DNA from: Pleionea litopenaei | Lineage (GTDB): Bacteria; Pseudomonadota; Gammaproteobacteria; Enterobacterales; Kangiellaceae | DNA length: 64,000 nt | NCBI RefSeq assembly: GCF_031198435.1 | Contig: NZ_CP133548.1 | Span: forward strand, 4,002,001-4,066,000 | Direction of reading: 5' to 3' | Part shown: positions 11,001 to 35,332 of the stretch, one piece after another | Position numbering within the stretch: the first letter of the stretch is position 1 | Layout of the letters: every line of letters starts with the position of its first letter | Notes under the pieces: generated by a model | What the model saw: only the letters and a program-made list of their open reading frames with translations | Database searches by the model: none | Told to the model about the DNA's origin: nothing | Position numbers and translations under genes: made by a program

Positions 11001-11404
11001 AAACCGTAACGGCTGCACTGACGCAAGGTGAACACACCATTCGTTTAGAGTATGTCAAAAATGCGTTCATGAGTTCTAAAGTTGACCGTGTTTCTATCGA
11101 CAACTTAATGTACCTAGCGCCGGATGTAGATTCTGATGGCGATGGCTTGAGCAATGGTGAAGAGGTGAATACCTACGGTACTGATCCAATGAGCACTGAC
11201 TCAGATGGTGACGGTATTGCTGACGGCGCAGAAGTCGCAGCGGGTACTAACCCAGCTAAGCGTGACACTGATAACGATGGCGTAGCGGATGGTGACGATT
11301 TGTTCCCAACTGACGCAAGCCGTTGGTCAAACAGTGACAGCGGTAGTGCATACTTCTTGTTATTGATGATGGCTGCCTTTGCAGGACTTCGTCGTCGCAA
11401 ATAG
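8009..11404 (+). CDS. Secreted M4-family (thermolysin-like) zinc metalloprotease with TSP3 repeats and C-terminal sorting-like tail
   Basis: An exported endopeptidase of 1131 residues. Order: signal peptide (1-22, cleavage after ANA), FTP/PepSY-type propeptide (~50-205), M4 catalytic domain (~215-510), then two units each made of acidic calcium-binding TSP3-type repeats (DxDxDGxxD) and a ~110-residue beta-sandwich domain (about 640-775 and 905-1035), and further TSP3 repeats. The HEISH zinc motif is at 351-355, the third zinc ligand Glu375 is in GGMNEAFSD, and the catalytic His434 is in DVHYSSGVYN. The extreme C-terminus is a Ser/Gly stretch, a hydrophobic helix and LRRRK, resembling GlyGly-CTERM tails processed by rhombosortase. 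That last point is inference. Confidence 0.93.
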   Translation: MKKSLLWTSVISAMAVGMTANAAERVALSNVNIELDQLAKNGTVGTQSLKKHFKLSKDHSFSKISEKSDFKGNQHKRIQQSYKGVRVFGQQVTQHSKVKLGKDYFAGHVITDIDKDLKGNVTPKLSTTDVIASLKSKVESKFGKWTNYERENTELVVYFDERFNKAFLAYHVELMAQDEKGHVVRRMFIVDANSDRIIKHWNALQHFDITGPGGNEKTGQYQYGTDYPALDGTDDGNGGTCYLENANVRAVDLANTTNTSNNTPYEFACSENTYKAINGAYSPINDAFYFGNVAFDMFDEWYQTAPLPFQLSMKVHYGNGYENAFWDGQAMTFGDGASTFYPLVDINVSVHEISHGFTDFNSDLIYSGESGGMNEAFSDIAGEAGEYFWKGSVDWFIGGDIMKNGDGLRFFETPSLDGRSIDHFDDYYSGMDVHYSSGVYNRGYYLLSNMEGWDPRKAFDIFVHANQNYWTPSSTMAEGACGLIESATDLEYDWISVYVAMSAVGAVCENSSTDTDNDTMSDISEIIIGFDFEDPADANADFDGDGIINKVEMLKGFDPKDTDSDDDGLSDDEEYNLYATDVINADTDADGMPDGYEVANGFNPLNDNDAMQDADSDGVSNVGEYLDGTDPNDANSVRMPPAYSLYDFEDQSVADFPISIYADYPLEISSTYAASGMYSLASPDMTHNEWGGSDITFVSEEGTMSFDLKISTESGWDYFYLAIDGALAFELSGEYDWVTISGPIAAGQHTISFIYAKDGSVSSGEDKIWVDNFYYPGYVRDDDADGMDDAWETNNGLNPADNADAALDADNDGLTNLEEYQAGSNPNVADTDNDGLTDSEEVDTHMTNPAAWDTDGDGVSDKDEVDNGLDPLVAGTDGEDDLDNDGFINRTESKYGSDLNDASSMPAAVAYLVESFNDGNTQAEWTSSTPESFSIQNGRLYSEPLSNDKVASIEVTDVFMAGELSFKANVDTEENVDKMRLLIDGVVVSELTGQLNDQTVTAALTQGEHTIRLEYVKNAFMSSKVDRVSIDNLMYLAPDVDSDGDGLSNGEEVNTYGTDPMSTDSDGDGIADGAEVAAGTNPAKRDTDNDGVADGDDLFPTDASRWSNSDSGSAYFLLLMMAAFAGLRRRK

Positions 11405-11425
11405 AAGCTTGTTGCAATGAAAGAG

Positions 11426-11452
11426 AAGGGCATCGTAAGATGCCCTTTTTTT
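11426..11452 (+). terminator. Rho-independent terminator of the M4 protease gene
   Basis: A 9-bp perfect stem AAGGGCATC / GATGCCCTT with loop GTAA is followed by an uninterrupted T-run to 11452. It begins 21 bp after the protease stop codon. Confidence 0.92.
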
Positions 11453-11556
11453 ATGGCAGATCATTAAGTGACGAGCGTATACCGTTAACGTTTTTTACCT
11501 GAAAAGCGTTTGCGGCCGTTAACTTAATTATTTATTGGAACGGGTTTGTTTAGGGC

Positions 11557-12396
11557 ATGAGTATGAATGCTGAAGAATTAATTAAAAGCGCAGTGTCAAC
11601 ATTTCCTGATCCCGATACCGCCAAGTTAGACGCTGAAATTCTAGTGTGTCATAGTTTGAAAAAACCACGCAGTTGGTTGAGAGCGTTTGCACGAGATGAG
11701 CTAACCCGTGAACAAGTCGCTGACATTCAGCAAGTATTTAAACGACGAATTCAAGGCGAACCCGTGGCCTATATTTTAGGTGAATGGGAATTTTTCTCGC
11801 TGCCGTTAAAAGTGACACCGGCCACTTTAATTCCAAGGCCAGAAACGGAGAGTTTGGTCGAAAAAGCGATTGCTTTGTTGGTTGATCGTCCAGTCGTCAA
11901 TATTATTGATTTAGGCACCGGCACTGGCGCTATTGCACTCGCATTGGCGAGTAATTTACCACAAGCCTCCGTTAGCGCTACGGACTTTAGTAAAGAAGCA
12001 TTAAGCGTTGCTCAATTGAATGCACAATCTTTAGGTTTACCAGTGACCTTTTATCAAGGAAGTTGGTTTCAGGCAGTACCAAGCAATGCAACTTTTGATT
12101 TGATAATTAGCAACCCACCCTATGTTGCAAATGATGACCCTCATATGACTCAAGGCGACCTTCCTTTTGAGCCGGTTACCGCGTTAACTGCAGGCGACGA
12201 TGAGTTTGCCGATTTAGACGAAATCATTCGTGATGCAGCTAACTTTTTGAATCGACAAGGGTGGTTAATGGTTGAGCATGGTTACTATCAAGGCGCTCGT
12301 GTCGTCGAGCTATTTAAAGCAGCAGGCTTTACTAAAGTTCAGACCGAGAAAGATTTATCGGGTAATGATCGGTTTACTTTAGGACAGTTCAATTAA
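11557..12396 (+). CDS. prmC: Release factor glutamine N5-methyltransferase
   Basis: Methylates the GGQ glutamine of RF1/RF2 using S-adenosylmethionine, which speeds peptide release. The 279-residue protein has the N-terminal helical domain with the RIQGEPVAYILG motif, the SAM loop DLGTGTGAIAL near residue 119, and the substrate-glutamine motif NPPY at 186-189. In most gammaproteobacteria it follows prfA directly. Here it has its own upstream region after the protease terminator. The mosaic repeat array begins 45 bp after its stop. Confidence 0.97.
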   Translation: MSMNAEELIKSAVSTFPDPDTAKLDAEILVCHSLKKPRSWLRAFARDELTREQVADIQQVFKRRIQGEPVAYILGEWEFFSLPLKVTPATLIPRPETESLVEKAIALLVDRPVVNIIDLGTGTGAIALALASNLPQASVSATDFSKEALSVAQLNAQSLGLPVTFYQGSWFQAVPSNATFDLIISNPPYVANDDPHMTQGDLPFEPVTALTAGDDEFADLDEIIRDAANFLNRQGWLMVEHGYYQGARVVELFKAAGFTKVQTEKDLSGNDRFTLGQFN

Positions 12397-12440
12397 GCTT
12401 TTCTCATCTGCTTAATAGATCAGTGAATAGAAACTAACGT

Positions 12441-12879
12441 GTTAATGCTTAATTGCAGGTTTCGCCTGCTGGCGACGGACTTTTGTCAATCGATGAACTT
12501 TTCTCTATCAAGTCATAGTCCGGAAAAAATCTATTGCTCAGAGATTATTTGTCCCGCCATCCCTGGCGAGCCATCACCTCGATCACAAGGCTGTTCGGGC
12601 ATCATCAAGTCGCGAAAGAATGCGTGCGATGTTGAGGTTGAGTGAAGCGACTGTGACGCAGTGAGTGACGATAGGCCTCACGGTCATGAAACAACAGGGA
12701 CGTTGCTTCAAGTTCACTCGGCTCAGGAAGAGCCTAGTGAACGGTGACCGAAAGAGGGCTGTTGACACTCGGTACCCGAAGGGCCAGTCACTGGAGCGGA
12801 GGGCACTTTGCCTTCTTTGGTGCTCCTGCCAAAGAAGGTCGCCGTCGGGCGAAACGCGATTTGAAACTTAAATGAAAGC
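12441..12879. repeat. Repeat unit 1 (head h1, middle A, tail X)
   Basis: First unit, 439 bp. It lacks the left arm of the unit-junction inverted repeat because it abuts prmC's flank. Head h1 pairs CGGACT (12476-12481) with AGTCCG (12517-12522). Middle A includes GCCATCCCTGGC. Tail X contains the near-perfect GTTCACT..AGTGAAC stem and the CCTTCTTTGG/CCAAAGAAGG hairpin. Confidence 0.85.
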
Positions 12880-12915
12880 GTTAATCCTCAATTGCAGGTT
12901 TCGCCTGCTGGCGAC
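12838..12915. repeat. Inverted repeat at a unit junction (example; recurs at every junction)
   Basis: Left arm GTCGCC-GTC-GGGCGAAAC (12838-12855) and right arm GTTTCGCCT-GCT-GGCGAC (12898-12915) are reverse complements apart from the central triplet and one G-T pair. They flank a 42-bp AT-rich spacer. The same structure spans each boundary between consecutive units. Confidence 0.85.
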
Positions 12916-13374
12916 GGCCTTTTGTCAGACGATACAAAAGCCCGGAAAAAATCTGTGCTCCTGTGACTCAGCCCTTGCGGGTACTCTGTGTCTTCTCATC
13001 TCTTGTTGCGCCATCGTCTACGCTCGTCCTGAGCGGAGCCGATTGACGCCGGCATCCATGCCGCCGTCCGCAGTCGAGTTGTTCATTCACAGGCTGACTC
13101 AAAGTCGCGAAAGAATGCGTGCGATGTTGAGGTTGAGTAAAGCGACTGTGACGCAGCGAGTGACGATAGACCTCGCGGTAATGAAGCAACAGGGAAGTTG
13201 CTTCAAGTTCGCTCGGCTCAGGAAGAGCCTAGTGAACGGTGACCGAAAGAGGGCTGTTGGCACTCGGTACCCGAAGGGCCAGTCACTGGAGCGGAGGGCA
13301 TTTTGCCTTCTTTGGTGCTCATGCCAAAGAAGGTCGCCGTCGGGCGAAACGCGATTTGAAACTTAAATGAAAGC
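12880..13374. repeat. Repeat unit 2 (head h2, middle B, tail X)
   Basis: A 495-bp unit. Middle B has the small hairpins CGCTCgtcctGAGCG and CGGCATccATGCCG. Positions 12872-13366 are identical to 14876-15370 in unit 6. Confidence 0.88.
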
Positions 13375-13871
13375 GTTAATCCTCAATTGCAGGTTTCGCC
13401 TGCTGGCGACGGCCTTTTGTCAGACGATACAAAAGCCCAGAAAAAATCTGTGCTCCTGTGAGTCAGCCCTTGCGGGTACCCTGTGACTTCTCATCTCTTG
13501 TTGCGCCATCGTCTACGCTCGTCCTGAGCGGAGACGATTGAGGCCGGCATCCATGCCGCCGTCCGCAGTCGAGTTGTTCATTCACAGGCTGACTCAAAGT
13601 CGCGGAAAACCCTTGCGTTTAGTCTTCTCTTTTTGGAATGTTCCCGAGAGCGGTTAGCAGAAAGCGGTATCAACAAACCTTGCAGAACTGATCCACTTTA
13701 GTAGGAAAGATTGTCGAGTCAATTGAGAGCTTGAGCTTTCATTTAAAGCGGAAACTCATACGAAACCCTGCTCCCGCGGCTAGCGGAAAGGGCGTTTTTG
13801 CTTACTTTTATCGCTCGAGATAAAAGTGAGTCGCCGTTGGGCGAAACGCGATTTGAAACTTAAATGTAAGC
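13375..13871. repeat. Repeat unit 3 (head h2, middle B, tail Y)
   Basis: A 497-bp unit. Middle B is bounded by the inverted pair TGAGTCAGCC / GGCTGACTCA. Tail Y replaces X and ends in a different hairpin, ACTTTTATC/GATAAAAGT, directly before the shared TCGCCGT..GGGCGAAAC end. Confidence 0.88.
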
Positions 13872-14369
13872 GCTAATCCTCAATTGCAGGTTTCGCCTGC
13901 TGGCGACGGACTTTTGTCAGACGATACAAAAGTCCGGAAAAAATCTGTTGCTCCGAGATGAAGGCCTACGGCTTCCCCGAACACCCTTGAGCCCCAAAGG
14001 GTGAACATAATCTATTCGCTCCAGCTCAGAGATTATTTGTCCCGCCATCCCTGGCGAGCCATCACCTCGGTCACAAGGCTATTCGGGCATCATCAAGTCG
14101 CGGAAAACCCTTGCGTTTAGTCTTTTCTTTTTGGAATGTTTCCGAGAGCGGTTAGCAGAAAGCTGTATCAACAAACCTTGCAAAACTGATCCGCTTTAGT
14201 GGGAAAGATTGTCGAGTCAATGGAGAGCTTGAGTTTTAATTTAAAGCGGAAACTCATACGAAACCCTGCCCCCGCGGCTAGCGGAAAGGGCGTTTTTGCT
14301 TACTTTTATCGCTCGAGATAAAAGTGAGTCGCCGTCGGGCGAAACGCGATTTGAAACTTAAATGAAAGC
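13872..14369. repeat. Repeat unit 4 (head h2, longer middle A, tail Y)
   Basis: A 498-bp unit. The head forms a perfect 11-bp stem, CGGACTTTTGT (13907-13917) with ACAAAAGTCCG (13926-13936). Middle A is extended by about 80 bp that include the hairpin CACCCTT..AAGGGTG. Confidence 0.85.
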
Positions 14370-14883
14370 GCTAATCCTTAATTGCAGGTTTCGCCTGCTG
14401 GCGACAGTCTTTTGTCAGGCGATGGACTTTTTTCTATCAAATCATAGACTGAAAAAAAAATCTGTGCTCCTGTGAGTCAGCCCTTGCGGGTACCCTGTGA
14501 CTTCTTAACTCTTGTTGCGCCATCGTCTACGCTCGTCCTGAGCGGAGCCGATTGACGCCGGCATCCATGCCGCCGTCCGCAGTCGAGTTGTTCAGTCACA
14601 GGCTGACTCAAAGTCGCGAAAGAATGGGTTCGAAGTTGAGGTTGAGTAAAGCGACTGTGACGCAGCGAGTGACGATAGGCCTCGCGGTGATGAAGCAACA
14701 GGGACGTTGCTTCAAGTTCACTCGGCTCAGGAAGAGCCTAGTGAACGGTGACCGAAAGAGGGCTGTTGGCACTCGGTACCCGAAGGGCTAGTCACTGGAG
14801 CGGAGGGCACTTTGCCTTCTTTGGTGCTCCTGCCAAAGAAGGTCGCCGTCGGGCGAAACGCGATTTGAAACTTAAATGAAAGC
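14370..14883. repeat. Repeat unit 5 (head h1, middle B, tail X)
   Basis: A 514-bp unit. Head h1 pairs CAGTCT (14405-14410) with AGACTG (14446-14451), a different sequence from unit 1 but the same pairing. Tail X keeps the GTTCACT..AGTGAAC stem. Confidence 0.85.
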
Positions 14884-15378
14884 GTTAATCCTCAATTGCA
14901 GGTTTCGCCTGCTGGCGACGGCCTTTTGTCAGACGATACAAAAGCCCGGAAAAAATCTGTGCTCCTGTGACTCAGCCCTTGCGGGTACTCTGTGTCTTCT
15001 CATCTCTTGTTGCGCCATCGTCTACGCTCGTCCTGAGCGGAGCCGATTGACGCCGGCATCCATGCCGCCGTCCGCAGTCGAGTTGTTCATTCACAGGCTG
15101 ACTCAAAGTCGCGAAAGAATGCGTGCGATGTTGAGGTTGAGTAAAGCGACTGTGACGCAGCGAGTGACGATAGACCTCGCGGTAATGAAGCAACAGGGAA
15201 GTTGCTTCAAGTTCGCTCGGCTCAGGAAGAGCCTAGTGAACGGTGACCGAAAGAGGGCTGTTGGCACTCGGTACCCGAAGGGCCAGTCACTGGAGCGGAG
15301 GGCATTTTGCCTTCTTTGGTGCTCATGCCAAAGAAGGTCGCCGTCGGGCGAAACGCGATTTGAAACTTAAACGTAAGC
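14884..15378. repeat. Repeat unit 6 (head h2, middle B, tail X), twin of unit 2
   Basis: A 495-bp unit identical to unit 2 except in the last few bases (AAACGTAAGC in place of AAATGAAAGC). The distance to unit 2 is 2004 bp. Confidence 0.88.
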
Positions 15379-15421
15379 GTTAATGCTTAATTGCTGGATT
15401 TGTATTCTAAGATTCATTCAT

Positions 15422-15503
15422 AAGGCCAGTCACTGGAGCGGAGGGCACTTTGCCTTCTTTGGAGCTCCTGGCAAAGAAGGTCGCCGTCGGGCGAAATGCG
15501 AAT
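15422..15503. repeat. Partial tail-X fragment closing the array
   Basis: An isolated copy of the last ~80 bp of tail X: AGGCCAGTCACTGGAGCGG, the CTTCTTTGG/CCAAAGAAG-type hairpin (slightly eroded) and the GTCGCCGTCGGGCGAAA end. It is separated from unit 6 by about 45 bp containing a degenerate unit start (TTAATGCTTAATTGCTGG). Confidence 0.8.
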
Positions 15504-15522
15504 TTAAATCTAAGGTTCCTGC

Positions 15523-15551
15523 TTGACATCTTTAAGCAGATAAAATATAAA
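15523..15551 (+). promoter_or_regulatory. Strong sigma-70-type promoter
   Basis: A perfect -35 TTGACA (15523-15528), a 17-bp spacer and -10 TATAAA (15546-15551). It immediately abuts the Fur palindrome and drives the gene at 15596. Confidence 0.85.
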
Positions 15552-15567
15552 TGATAATCATTATCAT
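15551..15567 (+). promoter_or_regulatory. Fur box (iron-responsive operator)
   Basis: ATGATAATCATTATCAT is a perfect 8-bp-arm palindrome around a central C and matches the core of the classical Fur consensus. It starts on the last base of the -10 element and covers the expected transcription start, so iron-loaded Fur should block transcription of the gene at 15596. Confidence 0.9.
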
Positions 15568-15595
15568 CTGTATCTTAAGAACTCAAGGAGCCGAA

Positions 15596-16135
15596 ATGCC
15601 ACGATGCGGCCTAAATGATTCAGCAATCGAAGGTGCAACCGACGAAGCACTGGTGTGTTGGGAACGGCTTACATTGCAGGCAGATGCTGCCTATCAAAAA
15701 AAGCTGCTTAAGCCAGCGTTTGATTATTTTTTACAGTCGCAGACAGTCATTGCTGACCGACTCAACGGACGAGGAAAAGTCTCCGCTGAGCACATACGGT
15801 GTTTTGTATTGGCTTGTCAAAACACTGCTTTTGTTGCTCAAAAATTACATCGGCGTCATTTGTGCGAATACTATTATCGGCAGAGTTATCGGCGACTCGA
15901 AGCGTTTTTAGAAAGTGATGCCCGAGGTCTTCGATTGCGCCAAGTCTTGTGTTTTGAAATTAACTTAGCGCAACGAAAGTACGCTGAATATTTGTACCGC
16001 CGCGACCGAAATGGTGAAACATCATTAAGTAAAGAGTTTCACCGAATAGTCAGGCGAATGTTTCAAAGTCGATGGCGAGAGAGTTCGGCGGCAGCCAATA
16101 ACTCTTGGATACCGCAAGCAAAACAGAGCGGCTAA
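15596..16135 (+). CDS. Hypothetical helical protein, Fur-regulated
   Basis: A 179-residue cytoplasmic protein with no signal peptide that I do not recognise. It is mostly alpha-helical, with a TPR-like rhythm (WERLTLQADAAYQKKLLKPAFDYFLQS, then HLCEYYYRQSYRRLE). It is rich in Arg, Tyr and Cys and ends in a basic, Ser/Ala-rich tail. The start is ATG at 15596 with AAGGAG 5 bases before it. A longer frame would begin inside the Fur box and is not credible. The gene stands alone: the repeat array is upstream and a convergent methyltransferase lies 3 bp downstream. The promoter implies expression during iron limitation. Its role is unknown; it may be an intracellular partner protein rather than a transporter. 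Confidence 0.75.
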   Translation: MPRCGLNDSAIEGATDEALVCWERLTLQADAAYQKKLLKPAFDYFLQSQTVIADRLNGRGKVSAEHIRCFVLACQNTAFVAQKLHRRHLCEYYYRQSYRRLEAFLESDARGLRLRQVLCFEINLAQRKYAEYLYRRDRNGETSLSKEFHRIVRRMFQSRWRESSAAANNSWIPQAKQSG

Positions 16136-16138
16136 AAA

Positions 16139-16789
16139 TTAGTTGGCCTTTTTACTTGTTTTTGGTTTTAGGTCGAGCACGTAACCATCGAAGTACTCAG
16201 GATCACAGACATACCACTCTCTTAAATCAACTTTCGCGAAATTTTGACATCGCTCAGCCAAATCCAAAAAAGGTTGCCGACCGGGATCGGCTAATAAAAT
16301 TCGCTTAACCCCAGCCCCGAGTGCGCGCTTAAACAGTTTTTCTAGCTTAACGGCTAAGTCGTCCCAGAAACAAATGTCAGCACCAATCATTAAGTTGTAT
16401 TGCGCAAGGTGGCGTGCAGTGAGCTTTTCGTAGCTTCGTCGAGACTCTTTGATGGTAACGTCGTTGAGCGCTGCTTGAACTTCGAGGTAGGGGAACACGT
16501 TGTCATCGATATCTAATCCGGTGACTGACTTGGCGCCATTTTTTTTGCAGTATATTGACGCGGCTCCCCAGCCACATCCAAGCTCGATGACGTCCGATGA
16601 ACGCTTAATAATATTATGAGTTTGAAAGTAATCCATTAATAAGAAGCTAGAGGACCAAGTCTTGTGGCCATGTACATTTGGCTCATAACACTTTTTTAAT
16701 TGCTTAACGAGACGATGTTTGTTTTCTAATAATAAAATATTAAATACATTAAACAGGTTTTCTTCAGGTAACTCGAAAACTTCTGGCAC
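16139..16789 (-). CDS. Class I SAM-dependent methyltransferase
   Basis: A 216-residue Rossmann-fold methyltransferase. Motif I is ELGCGWGAASIYC near residue 69, followed by the acidic loop TGLDIDDN. The next conserved region, LMIGADICFWDDL, places it near the METTL/Methyltransf_16 and PrmA-like protein methyltransferases. The preceding KTWSSSFLLMDYF segment fits that group (substrate-side helix). The substrate is unknown. The start is GTG with AAGGAG 7 bases upstream. It is convergent with the Fur-regulated gene, separated by 3 bp. Confidence 0.82.
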   Translation of the reverse strand: MPEVFELPEENLFNVFNILLLENKHRLVKQLKKCYEPNVHGHKTWSSSFLLMDYFQTHNIIKRSSDVIELGCGWGAASIYCKKNGAKSVTGLDIDDNVFPYLEVQAALNDVTIKESRRSYEKLTARHLAQYNLMIGADICFWDDLAVKLEKLFKRALGAGVKRILLADPGRQPFLDLAERCQNFAKVDLREWYVCDPEYFDGYVLDLKPKTSKKAN

Positions 16790-17179
16790 GTCTTGCTCCT
16801 TACATGATGTTTTTCAGATCAATATGTTTGTCAGATCAATTTAGCTTAAAGTAAGTCTTATTTTTAGACGATAACACTGTCGCTTTTGGTCGTTATCTTA
16901 CTGTAGCTCACCAAAGACAGAATGAGTTTAACCCACATATGTTCCAAATAACCACTCACTGGCTAAAGTCAATATCGACTCCATAGTAAAGATATAATAA
17001 AGTGTTTGTGGATCGCTGCCAATCGGTAATTGCCCGATCGAGCCTCTGTGAGGTTTTAGCGATTATTTAAAATAATCGGTCGTGACGAATAATGAGTAGT
17101 GATCCTTTCTCATGCCGAGTGAATTTAACGATGAGAGTGTTTTTTCGAATGTGGTTAACAATGGAGCAAACCTAATAGA
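16790..17179. other. Intergenic region upstream of the LacI gene
   Basis: About 390 bp between two divergent genes. It contains a 10-bp direct repeat CAGATCAAT-type (around 16816 and 16832) near the methyltransferase start and the palindrome at 17060-17078. No coding frame or RNA gene is recognised. Confidence 0.6.
17060..17078. promoter_or_regulatory. Palindrome upstream of lacI-type regulator, candidate operator
   Basis: CGATTATTT-A-AAATAATCG has perfect 9-bp arms around one base and sits about 100 bp before the regulator gene. Its left half plus TAA (CGATTATTTAA) recurs just upstream of the GPH transporter start (around 19547). It may be an autoregulatory site or the site of another regulator; it differs from the GAAAGCGCTTTC operators of this locus. 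Confidence 0.45.
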
Positions 17180-35220: not shown

Positions 35221-35332
35221 GCCATCCTTGGTCTCAAGGTTGTTTGGGCATCATCAAGTCGCGAATAGAGTTTGAACTTGAGATTGATAATAGCGACGGT
35301 TGGCACTCGGAACACGAAGTGCTAGGCATTGG
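35221..35332. repeat. Decayed solitary copy of the array repeat (middle A plus tail X)
   Basis: GCCATCCTTGG, then a variant of TCACAAGGCTGTTCGGGC followed by an intact ATCATCAAGTCGCGAA, then a degenerate GTTGAG..AGCGAC, and after an internal deletion GTTGGCACTCGG..CGAAG..GC. The order matches unit 1 (12550-12800). It shows the family is dispersed in the genome, not confined to the array. Confidence 0.8.

Follow-up and report, generated by a model that had tools for sequence, protein, structure and literature searches.

Short intergenic repeats and GGA-rich RNAs have each been described from many bacteria. Bacterial interspersed mosaic elements (BIMEs) are intergenic, palindromic and assembled as modular mosaics (PMC2817692), repetitive extragenic palindromes (REP/REPIN sequences) are 20-40 bp long (PMC3733652), CsrA binds GGA hairpins, usually as pairs (PMC4383904), and a CsrA-binding role has been proposed for the TwoAYGGAY RNA (PMC4333381). 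Here we describe a tandem array of non-coding repeats in a 64,000-nucleotide (nt) stretch of the Pleionea litopenaei genome (contig NZ_CP133548.1, positions 4,002,001 to 4,066,000; hereafter the window, whose numbering is used throughout). The array comprises six complete units (W1 to W6) of 397-472 bp each at 12458-15353, plus a truncated seventh, and each complete unit runs from a head through a middle to a tail drawn from alternative modules. On balance, and with modest confidence, we consider the repeat to be a mosaic structured element of ~450 bp, similar to a miniature inverted-repeat transposable element (MITE), that has been reassorted by recombination and that, if transcribed, would act as a multi-site decoy for CsrA.

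Like BIMEs and REP/REPIN sequences, the window repeats form an intergenic mosaic of alternative modules, but their units of ~450 bp far exceed the REP/REPIN palindromes. A REP system with a Y1 transposase was rejected, as the transposase family PF01797 had 0 matches in the P. litopenaei genome (controls were positive in 5 of 14). With bacterial MITEs the repeats share a short, non-coding body, inverted terminal modules (model R1 places those of heads on the minus and those of tails on the plus strand) and dispersal in relatives; they differ in that their termini are covarying structured hairpins instead of plain inverted repeats. Resemblance to TwoAYGGAY RNA (RF01731) lies in a pair of GGA-loop hairpins within a common stem, with one kind of middle (A) fitting the whole model and one kind of tail (X) and the other middle (B) its central part, whereas the window cores are inverted in pairs, bounded by terminal modules that lie outside the model, and arranged in tandem mosaic arrays. 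Repeated GGA-loop hairpins are likewise found in the decoys CsrB, CsrC, RsmY and RsmZ (PMC4383904, PMC9788540), and the window repeat would also be a decoy if transcribed, but it is multicopy and mosaic and has inverted halves.

Mosaic units of the array

The units were aligned segment by segment, with head, middle and tail boundaries set at AAAATCT and AAGTCGCG. Two kinds each of head (h1, h2), middle (A, B) and tail (X, Y) were distinguished, and the units, set apart by near-identical spacers of 42 nt, read h1-B-X, h2-A-X, h2-A-Y, h2-B-Y, h1-A-X and h2-A-X (Table 1). Middles and full-length tails of the same kind were highly alike in pairwise comparison (A-A 94-100%, B-B 96%; X-X 94-100%, Y-Y 96%), those of different kinds were not (A vs B 37-55%; X vs Y 48-58%), and middle B measured 81 nt in W1, where it is shortened, against 155 nt in W4. 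A preliminary description of this DNA had proposed a six-unit mosaic, which stands after correction: its A and B labels are exchanged, a seventh copy is added, and the heads make a weaker case. Its statement that nearly all combinations occur was too strong, as 5 of the 8 possible are present in W1-W6 and W6, identical in sequence to W2, provides no independent case. Nor do all units finish in the same sequence, since W3 carries a T in the loop of its end and the seventh copy, which is preceded by the spacer and then ~35 nt of other sequence, finishes in GAAATG.

When the genome and its relatives were searched, modules h2, A, X and Y were found to form a second array ~222 kb away (G000:C1 4239407-4241036; L018 3408-5037), and the family proved to be spread through the class. 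This second array has four units followed by a partial head, in the order h2-A-X, h2-A-shortened X (with a different start), h2-A-X and h2-A-shortened Y; modules B and h1 were not found in it. Over the ten units of both arrays, all four middle-tail (AX, AY, BX, BY) and all four head-middle combinations occurred, along with three of the four head-tail combinations. Chance is excluded for middles and tails because stretches of 81-250 nt reappear, 94-100% identical, in units of differing composition. Simple tandem duplication is insufficient to account for these combinations, as the preliminary description had argued. The full sets of middle-tail and head-middle combinations therefore require exchange between copies or repeated parallel change, and exchange is favored because middles and tails of one kind are so highly alike. 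Heads are a weaker case for module exchange than middles or tails: h1 (W1, W5) differs from h2 mainly in a loop that is ~17-19 nt longer, the two h1 heads are merely 85% alike, and the W5 head is 94% like short heads S1, S2 and S4 of the second array. Head stem type (GGAC, AGTC or GGCC) is independent of loop length, with the GGAC stem found with a long (W1) and a short loop (W4), and the AGTC stem likewise (W5 and S1).

Copies in relatives are also mosaic. Extra hairpin-bearing modules were located in and beside the terminal hairpin loop in 6 of 15 aligned copies from congener G002 (L062, L063, L064, L070, L072, L074). In genus g5, where 54 of 60 fetched loci could be parsed, core type I occurred with terminal types TGGTC (9), TGTC (9), TGGCC (6), CGCG (4), TGGAC (1) and one unclassified, and core type II with TGGTC (8), TGTC (5) and TGGCT (1). 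Three G146 elements carried an extra GGA-hairpin module at the same left joint (shortened in one), and in one element the module was inverted on the right. Because copies in G002, g5 and G146 swap modules, exchange at fixed joints is a property of the family. Separately, at 4 of 10 orthologous intergenic sites of g5 with an element in two species, the elements had opposite orientation and different modules (L081/L148, L083/L141, L086/L100/L132, L087/L156), which could reflect inversion, replacement or reinsertion at one spot; in-place module change by gene conversion was considered for L081/L148, L083/L141, L086/L100 and L087/L156 and set aside, as opposite orientation precludes a clean case.

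Table 1. Units, modules and related matches of the repeat family in the window
Feature	Position	Strand	Detail
Unit W1	12458-12854	+	head h1 12458-12525, middle B (shortened) 12526-12606, tail X 12607-12854
Unit W2	12897-13349	+	head h2 12897-12947, middle A 12948-13101, tail X 13102-13349
Unit W3	13392-13846	+	head h2 13392-13442, middle A 13443-13596, tail Y 13597-13846
Unit W4	13889-14344	+	head h2 13889-13939, middle B (full) 13940-14094, tail Y 14095-14344
Unit W5	14387-14858	+	head h1 14387-14456, middle A 14457-14610, tail X 14611-14858
Unit W6	14901-15353	+	head h2 14901-14951, middle A 14952-15105, tail X 15106-15353
Truncated seventh unit	15424-15500	+	end of X tail only; terminal module 15441-15496; 50.3 bits with model R1
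Right terminal module	12799-12854, 13294-13349, 13789-13846, 14287-14344, 14803-14858, 15298-15353	+	
Left terminal module, head of W4	13891-13948	-	45.6 bits with model R1
TwoAYGGAY-like core, middle A of W5	14459-14624	-	42.0 bits (cut-off 43); two GGA-loop hairpins, one closing stem
TwoAYGGAY-like cores, middle A of W2, W3, W6	12950-13115 (W2), 13445-13608 (W3), 14954-15119 (W6)	-	
Partial TwoAYGGAY match, middle B of W4	14001-14065	-	38.6 bits
Partial TwoAYGGAY match, tail X of W5	14687-14752	+	GGA-loop hairpin pair
Partial TwoAYGGAY match, tail X of W1	12683-12748	+	none listed for W2, W6
Decayed solo relic	35221-35332	+	pieces of middle B, then tail X; 85% over 47 nt and over 34 nt

Structured modules and the wider family

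The right terminal module is a conserved stem-loop followed by TCGCC-loop-GGCGAAA. Besides the head of W4, the other five heads matched R1, the model of the terminal module, on the minus strand (W1 and W5 weakly, at 22-23 bits). Because the module thus faces opposite ways in heads and tails, the A-X unit is an inverted pair: its left half, on the minus strand, comprises a terminal hairpin module and a core with two GGA hairpins, and its right half, on the plus strand, a core followed by a terminal module. Unit W2 folded into a structure far more stable than its shuffles (z score -9.11), and terminal-module folds ranged from z -3.98 (Y of W3) and -3.38 (head of W4) to -1.37 (X of W1). TwoAYGGAY spanned middle A from end to end on the minus strand (42.0, 37.7, 37.7 and 37.1 bits), and when middle A of W5 was folded alone on that strand both GGA-loop hairpins lay inside one long stem (z -5.76). 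Partial plus-strand matches were obtained in 2 of the 4 X tails (38.4 and 37.3 bits), and the best TwoAYGGAY score in the second array was 41.7 bits. The middle joint, AAGTCGCGAAA, resembles the terminal motif TCGCC-loop-GGCGAAA minus its loop, and may be derived from it.

Across the whole genome, model R1 gave 23 matches (E up to 0.1), of which the two arrays held 11 tails on the plus and 10 heads on the minus strand; the other two matches were weak and partial, one being the head at the end of the second array (E 0.036) and one lying elsewhere (E 0.024). In the class (one genome per genus, E up to 1e-4, own genome included), 36 of 143 genomes had matches, with up to 36 copies. Among the best 150 matches, judged by eye, 20 minus-then-plus pairs within 1.5 kb were found in 14 genomes besides the own one, and 0 plus-then-minus pairs. 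Four of these 20 were in G146 (482-483 bp start to start), whose elements are inverted pairs of 551-672 bp with GGA hairpins on both halves and both ends identifiable in 8 of 11 fetched loci; the pattern that found these ends gave none in G172, where 3 of 9 loci were read by eye. TwoAYGGAY itself matched in 20 of 61 genomes searched, 16 over cut-off, with 17 copies over cut-off in congener G002 (up to 63.5 bits) and up to 21 matches in genus g5, compared with none in the three other congeners searched and in 0 of 14 control genomes. In G046, from another family of the order, two TwoAYGGAY matches stood in direct tandem 409 bp apart (L078 1266-1426 and 1675-1836) and so make up a further small array.

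A terminal-module pattern run over one genome for each of 84,980 species returned at least 120 stretches, of which 80 loci (L165-L244) were read, giving 86 matches (hereafter the wide set; statements about it hold among the matches listed). These included Pseudomonas, Xanthomonas, Lysobacter, Haemophilus, Methylophilus, Thiobacillus, and Oscillospiraceae and Cystobacterineae bins. Five listed contigs were from outside the Gammaproteobacteria (L180, L185, L197, L204, L238; titled Oscillospiraceae, Cystobacterineae, uncultured bacterium or Verrucomicrobia) and could represent bin contamination. Conservation of the terminal hairpin and of part of the stem's 3' strand is built into the pattern, which leaves the 5' strand free; an exact 7-nt upstream partner was present in 35 of the 86. 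Allowing G-T pairs, one mismatch and a broader end pattern gave 86 hairpins in the 80 wide loci, not wholly the same list.

Covariation was evaluated in 57 aligned sequences drawn from 155 hairpins (61 picked by group limits, 4 further excluded). The terminal-module stem was 99.3% paired with both-side changes at 7 of 10 pairs, and the terminal hairpin was 93.7% paired, with 8 rows off by one column. Double-change cells over both helices numbered 120, against 37.0 (sd 4.7) in shuffles (0 of 500 as high), and slid structures dropped to 40-61% paired. Head stems of the two arrays also changed on both sides (GGAC/GTCC, AGTC/GACT). A pseudoknot, in which the loop pairs with the stretch before the stem, is supported in relatives: pairing scored 7.00 in g5 against 5.51 when permuted (max 6.12; 28 distinct sequences) and 6.26 in the wide set against 5.50 (max 5.91; 74 distinct), with 0 of 500 permutations as high in either, although these statistics ignore relatedness. 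Pairing was kept through changes such as those from GTGGTC/GACCAC to GTGGCC/GGCCAC, GTGGAC/GTCCAC and GCGTGC/GCACGC. A first parse had given 4.39 in g5 (mean 3.49, max 4.00 of 200) and 4.34 in the wide set (3.53, max 3.83), with nothing above permutation in tails (3.50, max 3.50) or heads of the own genome; a second, in which the upstream stretch was too short, was not clear in g5 (3.52 vs mean 3.28, max 3.65 of 300) and gave 4.36 in the wide set (mean 3.57, max 3.93).

No Rfam family (Rfam 15) covered the terminal module in the loci scanned, namely window 11400-16800 and 13 loci of the own genome and relatives (both at E up to 1; the TwoAYGGAY match in L030 overlaps its edge) and 18 of the 80 wide loci (gathering level; TwoAYGGAY appeared once there). 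An open-access literature search by repeat sequence strings returned no paper on these repeats. The family is apparently unnamed in that literature but may be in print under another name; the Pseudomonas fluorescens repeat families R178 and R200 (PMC2718517) could be related.

Dispersed elements in G002 end in TGTAAAA.../...TTATRCA, and their flanks were alike at 6 or more of 7 letters in 8 of 12 accepted copies, compared with 8.3% of 132 swapped pairs. In this test, which tolerated offsets of 2 or less, 4 of the 16 copies tried were rejected for poor ends; leaving out L065a, an accepted row whose length is impossible, gives 8 of 11. In G146 a search for target-site duplications found no consistent duplication. 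A phage or plasmid origin was considered and rejected, as unit W2 had no match in either collection in a distant-mode search.

GGA loops and the origin of the array

Apical-loop triplets were counted over the 300 nt preceding the terminal module, and TCC served as the comparison. GGA was the commonest triplet in the wide set (56 vs 9 for TCC; 86 elements, among the matches listed) and in g5 (48 vs 4; 44 elements), second to TGG (9) in G002 (8 vs 0; 12 elements), and tied for first in the own genome (5 vs 0; 11 elements). Two or more GGA hairpins were present at the strict setting in 20 of 86 wide-set, 5 of 44 g5, 0 of 12 G002 and 0 of 11 own-genome elements. In the wide set C and A were favored before GGA and G after it. 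Exact matches to ACANGGANGT, which we take to be the CsrA selection consensus, were found in 8 of 55 distinct wide-set hairpins and 1 of 25 in g5. The P. litopenaei genome carries one csrA gene.

On our reading, the array consists of tandem copies of a ~450-bp non-coding repeat from a widespread MITE-like family, in which tail Y is an alternative right half lacking a recognized core. Copy number probably changed by unequal crossing-over within the ~100 bp common to tail end, spacer and head start, which would explain both the number of units and the identity of W2 and W6. Middles and tails may have been reassorted at their common joints by homologous or short-homology exchange; because reassortment of middle with tail needs exchange within a short joint, we prefer short-homology recombination or hairpin template switching. 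Transcribed from either strand, an A-X unit would yield RNA with GGA-loop hairpins, hence the decoy hypothesis: such hairpins would resemble CsrA/RsmA sites, and sponge-like titration would be the most likely activity.

Anatomy, mosaicism, family distribution, covariation and GGA-loop enrichment come directly from the sequences; recombination as the route, transcription, CsrA binding and any benefit to the host we infer. Several observations weigh against the reading of the array as a recombining, CsrA-titrating element. No promoter-like site was found on the plus strand of the array, and the minus strand had five, compared with 2.0 on the two strands together in shuffled versions of the region. 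The best TwoAYGGAY score in the window (42.0 bits) falls 1 bit below the Rfam gathering cut-off of 43, no core was recognized in tail Y, the local fold of middle B is no better than shuffles (z -0.04), and the folds of tail X are modest (z -2.00 in W5; -0.52 for a differently cut stretch in W1). The second joint, at ~8-11 nt, is short for RecA-type exchange, and the evidence for target-site duplication comes from G002 rather than from the window units. Pseudoknot pairing in the own genome, with 7 distinct sequences, equals its permuted value (6.71 vs 6.71), and 280 of 500 permutations scored as high. Some Haemophilus, Methylophilus, Thiobacillus and G172 elements, judged by eye, have no obvious GGA hairpin pair, and the GGA core is therefore optional.

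These last elements fit a purely selfish MITE-like repeat, whose hairpins would serve replication, excision or transposase recognition and whose GGA loops would do nothing for the host. This explanation is also suited by the inverted terminal modules, the dispersed copies and the target-site-duplication-like flanks in G002, and it is the most serious of the alternatives, if still unlikely: GGA loops recur on differing stems with a bias to one strand relative to the terminal module, which is odd for recognition of double-stranded DNA, and no autonomous partner was identified in the own genome, searched for PF01797 only (0 matches). It is improbable that the repeat is a bidirectional terminator or insulator, in which the inward-read terminal hairpin and a T-rich stretch halt transcription entering the element. 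The region 12300-15700 does hold 13 terminator-like sites where shuffles give 4.6 (sd 2.0), and eight of the 13 are terminal hairpins read inwards; opposite orientation at 4 of 10 orthologous sites looks as if presence alone mattered; but the T-run is broken (CTTCTTTGG, CTCACTTTTA), flanking genes are not clearly convergent (6 of the 21 determined in g5, of 54; 4 of the 7 determined in G146, of 8), and the two-hairpin GGA cores are left unexplained.

The remaining alternatives concern how the mosaic arose. Tandem duplication followed by independent parallel gain or loss of modules, with no exchange between copies, could draw on the deletions seen in the shortened B of W1, the shortened tails of the second array and the truncated seventh unit, and the h1/h2 difference, mainly one change of loop length, could arise twice; we nevertheless judge it very improbable, as repeated independent origin is unlikely for A, B and full-length X and Y modules that are 94-100% alike across combinations. 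Least probable of all, and only barely credible, is integron-like shuffling, in which a site-specific enzyme swaps modules at fixed joints. The joints are indeed fixed, and the genome encodes two integron integrases over the TIGR02249 cut-off (L338, L339; G000:C1 1007984 and 1999013), but their regions have no similarity to the array and are >1 Mb distant even if the contig is circular, relatives swap at further joints in and beside the terminal hairpin, and the array has 0 attC-like sites (0.16 in shuffles). The cassette model was rejected on the lack of attC-like sites, including between units, and the distance of the integrases. Among the guesses of the preliminary description, those of a non-autonomous element and of a structured RNA family are each consistent with our results, while a recombination cassette system lacks support; its report of no integrase, transposase or reverse transcriptase nearby agrees with our scan of 14 neighboring proteins (4071-27885; one of them, of 194 aa, matched nothing).

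If the reading as a reassorted repeat with potential CsrA sites is extended to the whole family, the repeats might constitute an undescribed mobile family with CsrA/RsmA decoy hairpins as swappable cargo, whose titrating capacity shifts with copy number and shuffling and of which the window would show a tandem array, a proposal that we regard as rather doubtful. The orphan Rfam motif TwoAYGGAY is here tied to multicopy, mosaic and apparently mobile repeats with conserved terminal structure. Were CsrA to bind these hairpins, global post-transcriptional regulation would have a mobile source in a repeat element, and TwoAYGGAY function could be tested in common hosts such as non-pathogenic Pseudomonas; even if purely selfish, the array cleanly documents how repeats have exchanged modules in nature.

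Flanks of the arrays and minor observations

The array lies between prmC (11557-12396) and a small open reading frame (ORF), before which stands a Fur-box-like site (~15540-15567). From the prmC stop to this shared site the distance is 29 bp in congener G004 vs 3152 bp in the window, and the array is therefore an insertion or expansion relative to G004; in the other three congeners, a search with the window region gave no array match between the two flanking genes. At the position of the array downstream of prmC, locus L112 of G002 has a run of CCACTCG heptamers. The small ORF (15551-16135) encodes an uncharacterized product of 194 aa with no Pfam match, and its called start overlaps the Fur-box-like palindrome; the true start is probably near 15596. 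This ORF is present near prmC in four congeners (~2 kb from prmC in G001). The whole array is flanked by a 10-bp inverted repeat (12406-12415 and 15532-15541; ATCTGCTTAA and TTAAGCAGAT), perhaps an old hairpin split by the array.

A coding role for the repeats was considered and rejected, as a 164-aa ORF occurs only in the identical W2 and W6 and the W2 copy has no Pfam match. These ORFs (12872-13366 and 14876-15370) cover the identical 495-bp repeats and are probably an artefact of a repeat length divisible by three. The second array starts 275 bp downstream of a tRNA-Val gene, and just before it 58 nt (the tRNA-Val 3' end and following sequence) are directly repeated 168 bp downstream (L018 3122-3179 and 3290-3347).

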